NCBI RefSeq assembly: GCF_000022485.1
Contig: NC_012623.1
Span: forward strand, 558,001-622,000
Direction: 5' to 3'
DNA: 64,000 bases
Source: Sulfolobus islandicus Y.N.15.51
GTDB taxonomy: Archaea; Thermoproteota; Thermoprotei_A; Sulfolobales; Sulfolobaceae
Of the stretch, positions 4,922 through 8,190 are shown piece after piece. A program made the translations under genes and the position numbers. The notes beneath the pieces were generated by a model, which did no database searches, was not told the DNA's origin, and was given only the letters and a program-made list of their open reading frames with translations. The first letter of the stretch is position 1. Each line of letters begins with the position of its first letter.

Positions 4922-5037
4922 TCAGAAACCGCTAAGTTTCAAATTCTCTATTAGTTTTTTTCCCTCTTCAGTTATTTTGTATTTATCCCCAACACGCCTT
5001 ATTAATCCATGAGACTCCAATTTATTTAAGTAGATCC
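4922..5037 (-). pseudogene. C-terminal fragment of a small winged-helix regulator (partner of 7268-7394)
   Basis: On the minus strand the sequence reads RIYLNKLESHGLIRRVGD, then KYKITEEGKKLIENLKLSGF and stop. This is the recognition-helix end and wing of an MarR/PadR-like winged helix. It has no start: the frame is cut by the inverted-repeat element at 5038. The matching N-terminal half (…NVSRKSVRIY) is on the opposite strand at 7268-7394. Both halves carry the same 9 bp, GGATCTACT, at the break. Joining them through one copy gives an uninterrupted …SVRIYLNKLES… frame. Confidence 0.85.
5029..5037. repeat. 9-bp target duplication, copy 1 (inverted relative to copy 2)
   Basis: AGTAGATCC here is the exact reverse complement of GGATCTACT at 7386-7394. 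Both copies abut the outermost base of an element end. Nine bp is the usual target duplication of IS1-family elements. Its inverted orientation across the pair points to an inversion between them. Confidence 0.8.
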
Positions 5038-5154
5038 GAGAGTGTCGTTATTAAGCTACAAATGAGTAAATGAGCTTAGAAGGGCATAGGTAACGTTATA
5101 CTCTATAACGGATTACCTTTGTGACATAATTTATAGCTTAATATTGACACTTAT
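5038..5154. mobile_element. 117-bp MITE-like inverted-repeat element related to the IS at 7395
   Basis: The left end reads GAGAGTGTCGTTATTAAGCT and the right end, reverse complemented, ATAAGTGTCAATATTAAGCT. The imperfect terminal repeats extend about 22-26 bp and resemble the ends of the IS1-family element at 7395-8190 (shared AGTGTCG and TTAAGCTACAAAT). The centre is also a hairpin (AGGTAA..CGTTATA ctc TATAACGGATTACCT), so the whole element can fold back on itself. It has no coding capacity. The interior does not match the IS interior, so it is a MITE-type relative rather than a simple deletion of that copy. Confidence 0.75.
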
Positions 5155-5337
5155 CTCCGCACTCAAAAATCTTATAAGCTATGATTAATGCTGAAAACAC
5201 TAAAGAATAATGACTCAACATAAAGAGAAACTCATACCAAATTCCAGACCCTCATTAATTGGGTTTATAGTTACAATTAGAGGTATCAATGGTACTATTA
5301 GATTTTTGACTTTAAACTCCTCTCTTATAAGTTTCAT
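5155..5337 (-). pseudogene. N-terminal fragment of a DUF1404-like membrane protein (partner of 8191-8478)
   Basis: From an ATG at 5337 the minus strand reads MKLIREEFKVKNLIVPLIPL and then a hydrophobic stretch up to NEGLEFG. After a one-base frameshift it continues YEFLFMLSHYSLVFSALIIA YKIF and breaks at the element. Two membrane segments with a SHY/DHY-type motif resemble Sulfolobaceae DUF1404 proteins (from memory). The C-terminal half is on the plus strand beyond the IS at 8191. Both a frameshift and the breakpoint inactivate it. Confidence 0.65.
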
Positions 5338-5373
5338 AATTAAAAAAAATAGCTAATTTTATTTTAAAAAACT

Positions 5374-6921
5374 TTATTCGGGTGGTATTTCCTTGAATGC
5401 CAAATCTATATCAATACCTTTCCTTTTGTGAATAATCTTTGATATAATGTATATTAATGCACTAACAATAAGTGTCCCTATTACAAATACAGTTGTAATT
5501 AAGTTAGGTCCACTAGAAGTCATGAATCCGAAGTCTGAATTAGTAGCTGCCACATAAGTCAGATATGCGAAATAACCAGCCGAAATTAAACCTGCTATAG
5601 ATAATATATAATTTCTTTCTTTAATTCCAAATGCAATACCAGCTACACTTACCACGAGAAAATATAGGCTTCCTAGTATTGTAGCACCATAAAGGGAAAG
5701 TGCAGCGCCTATGGAAAATGCCGGAACTAAAAGCAACAGTAAAGTTAATGAGAGATCAAATACGTGAGCGTATACTGGTGAACCATGTTTATTAACCTCA
5801 CTGAACTTAGTCGGTAAAACTCTATCAAAGGACAATGCAAAAACGTATCTGGCAAATACTATAACACCGTAAGCAAGTATGTATATGTTCCATACTATTA
5901 GCCCTAATGCGATTATCCATTGTAATATTGGATTTGACGCTACAGCTATTGCAGCCGTCCAGAAGTTGTATAAAAAGGTTGGATAAGCTTCTAAGTTGAA
6001 ATTATAACCTCCAATTAAATCCATCTCAAGAAACGCTAATGTAACCAATATTCCAGTGAGTATTAAAGCTATTGGTAAGTTCCACTTTATGGTTTTCTTT
6101 CCTTTAAATTCAGCTGCAACTGCTGGTCCAGCTTGCATCCAAGGATATGTATATAACGCGAAGAACGGTAAGAGGAATAATGTAGCAGACCAAGATATCG
6201 AAGAAGGCAAAAATGATCCTCTAGATGAGGGAATAGTTACATTAAGATTATTAGCGGTTATTAGTGTTGAAATTTTCGAGTAAAAGTCACCTGAATTAAG
6301 CGCTAAAACTATCATTGCTAAGACTAACGTGGCCATTGAAAATATTCCCAACACTGATACTACTCTATACCCCCACTTAGCCCTAAATATGTTAAGGAGA
6401 ATTATTACTACGAAAACTAACGCCGAAATGCCATAAATTATTAAACTTTGTTGTAAGGTTGGTGTTACTGCATATGGGTCCACTATTATGTTGTTGGCTA
6501 TACTTAAGAGCGCAGGAGAGTGTTGATATTCACCTATTACTGTTAGGGCAGTGTTTATGGCGGAAGATGTGAAAAATGCTACTAGTGCGAAGTAAGCTGT
6601 AGATTCTATCATCACAGCCAGAGCCATTGTAGATCCTAAACCACCATTTAGGCTTCTCGAAATCCATATGTAATCTCCACCAGTTCTTGGAATTTTTGAC
6701 GTTAAAATTACATAAATTAATAATTGCGGTATAGCGAAAATAAAACCAATTAACGATGCTAACCATAACACTCCTCCTTGTTGTATATATGGTGATATTG
6801 ATTCAAATAGAGCTATTCCAGCTGACATATTGCCTATGTTAAGTGCAACTGCGTCCCATAACGATACATTCTTTATTAAACCGGAAGTCTCCCTTACGAA
6901 TATTTTGTTTTTGCTGCTCAC
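5374..6921 (-). CDS. APC superfamily amino-acid permease (within the inverted segment)
   Basis: 515 residues with 12 or more hydrophobic helices. It starts at GTG with a short hydrophilic N-terminus, then [20 protein letters not shown], a typical APC TM1 with the conserved small residues, and has a PRTGGDYIW motif after TM2. It is expected to import an amino acid or amine across the cytoplasmic membrane. It is intact although it lies between the two elements and was probably inverted as a unit. The promoter at 6943-6950 overlaps a TTTACTTA half-site that recurs as an 18-bp palindrome upstream, suggesting control by a local regulator. Confidence 0.9.
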
Positions 6922-6942
6922 ACGCTATCTTCTAAATTCCCC

Positions 6943-6950
6943 TATTTAAA
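6943..6950 (-). promoter_or_regulatory. TATA box of the APC permease at 5374
   Basis: TTTAAATA on the minus strand lies 22-29 bp before the GTG start at 6921, compatible with a leaderless transcript. The adjoining 6951-6958 TTTACTTA half-site covers the BRE position. Confidence 0.5.
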
Positions 6951-7012
6951 TTTACTTATCTATTGCAAAAGTATGATTAAATCCTTGTAGAAAATTTACT
7001 TACATAAGTAAA
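6951..7012. promoter_or_regulatory. Candidate operator: TTTACTTA half-site plus 18-bp palindrome
   Basis: TTTACTTACATAAGTAAA (6995-7012) is a perfect palindrome with 8-bp arms around CA. An additional direct TTTACTTA lies at 6951-6958, next to the permease TATA box. Three copies of one octamer in 62 bp upstream of a permease, with a regulator gene fragment on the other side, look like an operator cluster. Confidence 0.55.
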
Positions 7013-7236
7013 TGTTATAAGAATCTTCTCACTAATAAATTTTTCTTCCAAAATAACATGGTCAGCTCCATGTAAAAACCTAAAGAATTGGGAACAAGAG
7101 ATAAATATTATGCCTTATTCGTATTATCGATGGCTACCAAAAGATCAATATTATTTACCGTAACTATTACTCTATTTCATATAGGTTTGTTAATATCTAA
7201 ACATCATAATTATAGGTTCTCTAGCTGTCCGTTTTT

Positions 7237-7248
7237 AGCATATATTCC
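7237..7248 (+). promoter_or_regulatory. TATA box of the disrupted winged-helix gene
   Basis: AGCATATATTCC lies about 25 bp before the GTG at 7268, supporting that GTG as the original leaderless start of the regulator. Confidence 0.4.
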
Positions 7249-7267
7249 CTTAACTTCCGATTTTATA

Positions 7268-7394
7268 GTGGATACAAAATGTAGATATAACCTGCTCAAA
7301 ATTCTAGATTTGATTGAAGAAGCGGAAGATGGCTTAACAGTAGAATATATATCCACTAATCTAAATGTAAGTAGAAAATCTGTTAGGATCTACT
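7268..7394 (+). pseudogene. N-terminal fragment of the small winged-helix regulator (partner of 4922-5037)
   Basis: The frame reads (M)DTKCRYNLLKILDLIEEAED, then GLTVEYISTNLNVSRKSVRIY, the first helices and recognition-helix start of a winged-helix DNA-binding domain. It stops at a TGA created by the element at 7395. GTG 7268 is preferred as start because a TATA box lies 25 bp upstream; an in-frame TTG at 7088 would add about 60 residues of doubtful coding sequence. The rejoined protein would have 77 residues. The neighbouring permease and octamer operator suggest it once regulated that promoter. Confidence 0.8.
7386..7394. repeat. 9-bp target duplication, copy 2
   Basis: GGATCTACT immediately precedes the left end of the IS1-family element. 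The inverted counterpart lies at 5029-5037, not on the right side of this IS, where the flank is TCCACACTC. Confidence 0.8.
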
Positions 7395-8190
7395 GATAGT
7401 GTCGTCGTTAAGCTACAAATTCTGGGATTAACCTTCTCTCCCATAAGACTAGGGCTATGGAGTACATCATGGTGCGAATGCTCCTATTTACTGCCTTCGT
7501 TGCTCTCTTGAATCTAATTAGCCTATCCCTTAATGAGGAATGAAAGGACTCGTTCGGGTTAACTGGCGAGACAACCGTGTGGTCTTTCAACCAGAAGTAC
7601 AAGTTATAATCATCGCTCACCCATCTACCCTCGTCAGGCAAATACTTTTTGACCTCAAGGAAAGTACTCTCATCCCTATCCCCCACAGAGTAAATGAGGT
7701 AAACTCCCAGCTTCGTGTACACGTAACAAGTGAAAACCCACTTGTAAAAAGCCCTAGCATTCTTGTACAAGTAAGTCCACATCTCATCAACAACCTTAGC
7801 AACAACCTTACCCTTGACCAGCTCCTTAGCCCTACCCCACAACTCAACCAACTTCTCATGCTTTTTCCTACCATAACGCTTAATCCAAGTGAAAACAGTA
7901 CCAAGAGGTACGTTAAGCACCCTAGAAATAGCCCTCATACTCATACCATTAGCATACATTCTCAAAGCCTCCTCCCTCAACTTCCTAGAATGATGATGAT
8001 AACTAGCATCACCCAAGAAGTACTTACCACAATCCCTACACAAAAACTTCTGCCTACCCAAAGGCCTACCACACTTAACAACATGATGACTACCACAAGA
8101 GGGACAAGAAACGTCTTGCCTAAATACAGGCTTCCTACCCATAAGTAATACTCGTTATACAAATATAAATAACTTAACGACGACACTACC
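7395..8190 (-). mobile_element. IS1-family insertion sequence, 796 bp (ISC796-like)
   Basis: The ends are GATAGTGTCGTCGTTAAG on the left and, reverse complemented, GGTAGTGTCGTCGTTAAG on the right: 17 of 18 positions agree. The length of 796 bp equals that of ISC796 as I remember it. One complete transposase gene fills it on the minus strand. No matching direct target repeat surrounds it. The left flank instead pairs, inverted, with the flank of the element at 5038, which indicates rearrangement after insertion. Confidence 0.85.
7408..8142 (-). CDS. tnpA: IS1-family transposase
   Basis: 244 residues. An N-terminal zinc ribbon has Cys13, Cys16, Cys35 and Cys38 (CPSC…CRDC). A helix-turn-helix follows at about 55-90 (EEALRMYANGMSMRAISRVL). 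The DDE catalytic triad is plausible at D119 (VVDEMW), D177/D178 (VSDDYN) and E198 (NPNESFHSSLRDR), the last in the IS1-typical NxxE..S..R context. It is a single uninterrupted frame, unlike bacterial IS1, which needs frameshifting; this is normal for archaeal members. It appears intact and potentially active. Confidence 0.9.
   Translation of the reverse strand: MGRKPVFRQDVSCPSCGSHHVVKCGRPLGRQKFLCRDCGKYFLGDASYHHHSRKLREEALRMYANGMSMRAISRVLNVPLGTVFTWIKRYGRKKHEKLVELWGRAKELVKGKVVAKVVDEMWTYLYKNARAFYKWVFTCYVYTKLGVYLIYSVGDRDESTFLEVKKYLPDEGRWVSDDYNLYFWLKDHTVVSPVNPNESFHSSLRDRLIRFKRATKAVNRSIRTMMYSIALVLWERRLIPEFVA

Follow-up and report, generated by a model that had tools for sequence, protein, structure and literature searches.

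A putative two-part purine-regulon operator in Sulfolobaceae and an HTH-phosphoribosyltransferase as its candidate reader

The permease locus and its rearrangement

In the window (the whole 64-kb stretch of Sulfolobus islandicus Y.N.15.51 DNA analysed here), an intact gene for an APC-family permease is preceded by a cluster of octamers, on the other side of which lies the 5' half of a broken winged-helix gene (Table 1). The initial annotation had described three copies of the octamer TTTACTTA, and these were confirmed on the sequence at 6951-6958 (+), 6995-7002 (+) and 7005-7012 (-). The first copy adjoins the permease TATA box, as had been claimed, TATTTAAA on the forward strand reading TTTAAATA on the permease strand. 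The other two had been described as the arms of a perfect 18-bp palindrome, a description that needs correction because the centre is not self-complementary: arms of 9 bp flank a non-complementary CA. The permease is probably leaderless, as the spacing from the TATA box to the GTG (6921) leaves no space for a leader.

The octamers are real and clustered beyond chance. The trio within 62 bp was found in none of 300 Markov-simulated windows, and TTTACTTANNTAAGTAAA was likewise present in 0/300. The lone octamer was not enriched within the 64-kb window, with 11 matches against a shuffle mean of 9.1 and at least 11 matches in 29 of 100 shuffles.

Table 1. Features of the permease locus, in window coordinates.
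Feature	Position	Strand	Remark
3' part of winged-helix gene	4925..5038	-	now 2 kb from the 5' half, opposite orientation
IS-derived remnant, about 126 bp	5039..5164		ends resemble IS ends; other end of inverted segment
Inverted segment (permease, operator and 5' winged-helix half)	5165..7392		relative to nearest relative G013
APC-family permease (AA_permease_2), 515 aa	5374..6921	-	intact
Permease TATA box TTTAAATA	6943..6950	-	predicted from sequence
Second, promoter-proximal half-site TAAGTAAA (third octamer)	6951..6958	-	BRE position beside TATA box
Main operator palindrome ATTTACTTA-CA-TAAGTAAAT	6994..7013		core TTTAC-N8-GTAAA 6995-7012; conserved upstream of family permeases
5' half of broken winged-helix gene	7130..7393	+	apparent N-terminal membrane segment and wHTH
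IS element, IS1-like	7395..8188		terminal inverted repeats GATAGTGTCGTCGTTAAG / CTTAACGACGACACTA
IS transposase	7408..8142	-	

Compared with G013, a 2.2-kb segment is inverted with respect to the DNA on either side; the IS element marks one end of it and the IS-like remnant the other (5039-8188 overall). The transposase scored 22.9 bits against the IS1 transposase model PF03400, for which the cut-off is 24.1. Judged from this arrangement, the inversion likely arose by recombination between inverted IS copies. The statement in the initial annotation that the divergent winged-helix gene was broken by the element therefore holds in part: its fragment is indeed broken beside the IS, but by an inversion rather than a simple insertion. 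The operator and promoter were undamaged and moved with the permease as one piece.

In six genus mates, the winged-helix gene is intact, with ORFs of 123-137 aa, and is divergent from the permease in all six. The protein contains a winged-helix domain (PF14947, 5e-10) and what appears to be an N-terminal membrane segment. Between the operator and this gene lies a genus-conserved TTAATAAAT-like element (7033-7042), possibly a further TATA box or a small transcript.

Conservation, target genes and layout of the operator

The six genus mates all retain the palindrome ahead of the permease (in one with a single mismatch), while its flanks diverge and permease identity ranges from 98 to 79%; the TATA-adjoining octamer reads TTTACTT[AG] in 6/6. 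Gene content suggests that this genus is Saccharolobus. In most permease orthologues of the family the site lies 62-85 bp before the start, and a second similar repeat is often found about 44 bp nearer the gene; no good palindrome match was found in the permease upstream regions of L027-L030 and L034-L036. The strict pattern TTTACWTRNNYAWGTAAA yielded 70 sites in 30 of 31 family genomes, compared with 2 sites for the reversed pattern in the same 31 genomes. Outside the family but within the same order, the strict site is rare (15/166 genomes). Conservation of the octamers upstream of orthologous permeases had been proposed as the check on their role; it extends across the family and supports the octamers as a putative permease operator.

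The initial annotation raised the possibility that the divergent winged-helix protein controlled the permease. This protein as a dedicated permease regulator, with the operator now orphaned, draws on its winged-helix domain and on its intact, divergent gene in all six genus mates, but the gene was seen next to the permease in the window's genus alone, and orthologous permeases keep the operator in other genera, where other genes occupy its place at the nine loci read. Moreover, the palindrome is about 117 bp from the winged-helix gene start and also occurs before purC and purT (see below). We thus consider this model very improbable; the winged-helix gene may have a minor local role within the genus.

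All 70 strict sites were read with their flanks, and the genes behind them were classed against reference genes, with identities assigned by Pfam and NCBIfam (SAICAR_synt/purC, PRK09288/PurT_C, GMP_synt_C and Xan_ur_permease). APC permeases, comprising orthologues and paralogues, follow 24 of the sites, purC 16 and purT 13, while two each precede guaA (synthase subunit) and an NCS2 (xanthine/uracil-type) permease. Altogether, 57/70 sites stand before an APC permease, purC, purT, guaA or NCS2, and 33/70 before the latter four alone. The remainder comprise three sites before FMN reductase, four before single other genes (helicase, ABC, PIG-L and ACS, one each, without a second half-site) and six with no reference gene behind them. 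One permease site, in G005, has the permease on one side and purB on the other. Because the sites precede APC permeases, purC, purT, guaA and a xanthine/uracil-type permease, the element is almost certainly a purine-regulon operator. We infer that the APC permease, which is thereby tied to purine metabolism across the family, has a purine-related substrate.

In the genome of the window itself, a loose TTTAC-N8-GTAAA search returned 14 sites (control, 5), two of which are purine-linked: the window's permease site and one 54 bp before purC. A permease paralogue at 90840 has a one-mismatch site upstream, and the one- and two-mismatch sites of this genome lie mostly within ORFs.

To examine the layout of the operator, all 140 flanks of the 70 sites were aligned on the palindrome, with 200 shuffles as control. 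At an offset of 39 or 40 bp beyond the site, GTAAW was present in 44/140 flanks, against a shuffle maximum of 8 and 5 flanks for the next best adjacent offset pair; in the window, TAAGTAAA follows the main site at 39 bp on the permease side. Counted at offsets 36-44 in either direction, the second half-site is present at 22/24 permease, 11/16 purC and 12/13 purT sites and is lacking at the guaA, NCS2 and FMN-reductase sites. A half-site 44-45 bp from the main site thus accompanies 45/53 permease, purC and purT promoters versus 1/17 others, indicating that the operator is bipartite, although these counts are not independent events because the 70 sites are related by descent. The stronger point is that the spacing is common to three unrelated gene classes. 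The third octamer of the permease region is the second half-site of this bipartite operator.

The octamers might instead be mere BRE/TATA core-promoter elements in AT-rich DNA. The archaeal BRE has the consensus RNWAAW, which TAAGTAAA directly upstream of TTTAAATA fits, and the lone octamer is, as noted above, not enriched in the window. However, about 45 bp separate the 18-bp palindrome from the TATA box below it, and its occurrence far exceeds that of controls. By eye, the half-site precedes the TATA box in the permease promoter but follows it in those of purC and purT. Since the half-site keeps a constant 44-45 bp from the palindrome but changes sides of the TATA box between these promoters, it is not simply a BRE, and a pure core-promoter explanation is hardly credible.

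Several gene arrangements recur around the sites. At 16/16 purC sites, a tRNA-binding-domain protein is encoded divergently from purC with the operator in common (L094, L098, L103, L108, L118, L124 and others). A 200-aa ORF (L090:1661-2260 and equivalents), for which no Pfam match was found, ends at the purT operator in 12/13 purT loci. In L100, L106 and L113, from two genera, the strict palindrome lies 5-8 bp before the FMN reductase gene and has no second half-site. A divergent gene for a molybdenum hydroxylase large subunit shares the permease site in L122, L127, L130, L134, L031 and L032; xanthine dehydrogenase was considered as a permease partner and rejected, as HMMs gave glyceraldehyde dehydrogenase alpha as the nearest model at six permease sites.

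A candidate HTH-phosphoribosyltransferase regulator

Phosphoribosyltransferase (PRTase)-fold regulators control purines in Gram-positive bacteria, and we therefore surveyed the PRTase-domain proteins of the window's genome for a candidate regulator. One of the eight, a protein of 246 aa, has an HTH-like N-terminal extension. Its gene is intact (G000:C1:844327-845064) and lies 280 kb from the permease operator. With this candidate intact in the genome, and with operator and permease inverted together, the earlier idea that the operator is orphaned is not borne out.

The HTH-PRTase has homologues in 29/31 family genomes (the other two genomes are 79% and 71% complete) and relatives in 173/197 genomes of the order, including those 29. 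Its PRTase domain (PF00156, 4.5e-14) contains the PRPP-binding loop, and D193, D194, G199 and T201 are invariant in 41 sequences. No Pfam HTH match was found for the own-genome protein at E 0.1; its AlphaFold model (pLDDT 91.9) has an all-helical N-terminus, and the N-terminus of the G081 protein matches HTH_3 (2.6e-6). Foldseek placed adenine PRTase enzymes above B. subtilis PurR, which was in the top 50, and superposition of both domains on PurR was poor (rmsd about 9-11). When the sequence was compared with PDB molecules, B. subtilis PurR came second (3e-10). The nearest named family is the NCBIfam model 'adenine phosphoribosyltransferase' PRK08558, whose alignment spans nearly the whole length of the HTH-PRTase, with scores of 176 and 156.6 bits that do not reach the cut-off of 184. 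Because of this nearest model, the protein may be, or also be, an enzyme.

Gene neighbourhoods outside the family link the candidate to purine genes. G081, a genome of another family, has its HTH-PRTase gene divergent from purC-purS-purQ, with purB behind (purS and purQ identified by eye); a strict site falls in the gap, 63 bp from the HTH-PRTase gene and 74 bp from purC. In G187, where the HTH-PRTase gene and purC are arranged in the same way, the gap holds a site with two mismatches. Among the 30 best-scoring HTH-PRTase loci, which are a non-random sample, the adjoining gene is purC, purB or one for a PnrA-like lipoprotein at 13 and encodes a PRPP synthetase at another 4 (17/30), the neighbours being HMM-confirmed in L208, L210, L214 (purC just under the cut-off), L219, L226, L230 and L237 and otherwise assigned by eye.

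Within the family, the 29 HTH-PRTase loci have no strict site of their own; the best matches have two mismatches and fall inside the coding region in 4/29 loci (L172, L177, L178 and L180). Outside the family, 14 loci with the site were read (all but the site of one genome and a second site in another place); seven are purine-linked and seven are not, and co-occurrence of the protein and the site is loose there because many genomes have the protein but few the strict site. Owing to the family genes lacking a strict site of their own and to this rarity, we rate the HTH-PRTase as a quite probable, though still putative, reader of the operator.

Alternatively, the purine regulon and its bipartite operator could depend on another reader, such as a TetR-, MarR- or Lrp-type transcription factor, and the HTH-PRTase could be a salvage enzyme whose HTH is decorative. 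The strict operator missing from the family HTH-PRTase genes and the adenine PRTase model nearest to the protein would fit this view. Against it, the site lies between the HTH-PRTase gene and purC in G081, the gene adjoins purine and PRPP-synthetase genes in other families, and B. subtilis PurR works by just this logic, joining a PRTase sensor to a DNA-binding domain. Sulfolobus regulators that bind semi-palindromes, some with extra half-sites, are again compatible with another reader: in the available excerpts, YtrASa (PMC6746942) and FadRSa (PMC6449355) of Sulfolobus acidocaldarius are described with short semi-palindromes, with accessory half-sites for YtrASa. They are unlike the purine operator in the small number of loci targeted (two targets and four genomic sites) and in the genes concerned, with no purine-gene target in those excerpts (PMC6746942, PMC6449355). 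Weighing these points, we regard a different reader as rather unlikely.

Proposed mechanism and relation to known systems

Our preferred reading, to which we assign a probability of about 0.74, is that Sulfolobaceae have a bipartite purine-regulon operator that is most likely read by a trans-acting HTH-PRTase sensing PRPP and/or purine nucleotides. The operator would combine the 18-bp inverted repeat TTTAC-N8-GTAAA with a weaker half-site that falls within the core promoter, 44-45 bp closer to the gene, and its targets would be the APC permease, purC and purT and, in some genera, guaA, purB or the xanthine/uracil-type permease. With one HTH-PRTase dimer on the palindrome, a further pair of subunits would sit on the promoter-proximal half-site, at a distance of about four helical turns, where it would cover the BRE/TATA or start region and block TBP/TFB or polymerase. 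The genes would thus be kept low when purines are plentiful, and a rise in PRPP would cause release. We infer the binding by HTH-PRTase, its ligand and repression rather than activation; activation may apply instead, particularly where the palindrome stands alone (guaA, NCS2), as Lactococcus PurR acts as an activator.

As modelled, the HTH-PRTase resembles Bacillus PurR by fold and logic and is no orthologue by model score. Like the candidate, B. subtilis PurR (PDB 1p4a, 1o57, 7rmw) has an N-terminal DNA-binding domain and a C-terminal PRTase domain with a PRPP loop, and it targets purine biosynthesis and transport genes through inverted-repeat sites in tandem. The candidate differs in not reaching the purR_Bsub model (57.5 and 54.2 bits versus 258.7) and in its HTH, which in the G081 protein is of Cro/XRE (HTH_3) type, whereas PurR has a winged helix. 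The operators differ as well: PurR uses PurBoxes, while here TTTAC-N8-GTAAA is combined with a half-site 44-45 bp away in an archaeal core promoter. GfcR of haloarchaea is a PyrE-like transcription factor of HTH-PRTase fold that controls sugar degradation, not purines; its NCBIfam model NF045507 was not reached by the HTH-PRTase either (27.8 versus 300 bits). Gelfand, Koonin and Mironov reportedly predicted, in 2000, a regulon of purine biosynthesis and transport in Pyrococcus, which is also a computational archaeal purine regulon but belongs to another phylum. In Halobacterium, the available excerpt describes purine genes under TrmB-independent control and no PurR homologue by sequence (PMC3794607).

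Our search of the open-access (PMC) literature found no description of a Sulfolobales purine operator or HTH-PRTase regulator. For archaeal purine control, a largely open field, the present analysis supplies a defined operator, the genes it precedes and a single candidate regulator, and operator and candidate are testable in laboratory strains of Sulfolobus acidocaldarius or S. islandicus. If the preferred reading is true, the PRTase-based PurR of Gram-positive bacteria would have a parallel in archaea; the reading also points to a regulatory role for proteins whose closest family is 'adenine phosphoribosyltransferase PRK08558'. A broader proposal, to which we give even odds, is that Sulfolobaceae, and probably more of their order, possess a PRPP-sensing purine regulon whose HTH-PRTase arose independently of Bacillus PurR, with a Cro/XRE-like HTH in place of the winged helix. 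Through the fixed spacing of the two-part operator, a single protein assembly would span the upstream palindrome and the core promoter, and the APC permease would be an unrecognised importer of purines or purine precursors.

A separate observation concerns HTH-PRTase loci outside the family. In L219, L221, L225, L226 and L228, the HTH-PRTase gene is followed by the PnrA-like lipoprotein gene, and a TTGAT-N8-ATCAA-like repeat, seen by eye, lies between them, just before the lipoprotein gene. This repeat, a weak lead, has the same 5-8-5 layout as the operator with other arms.
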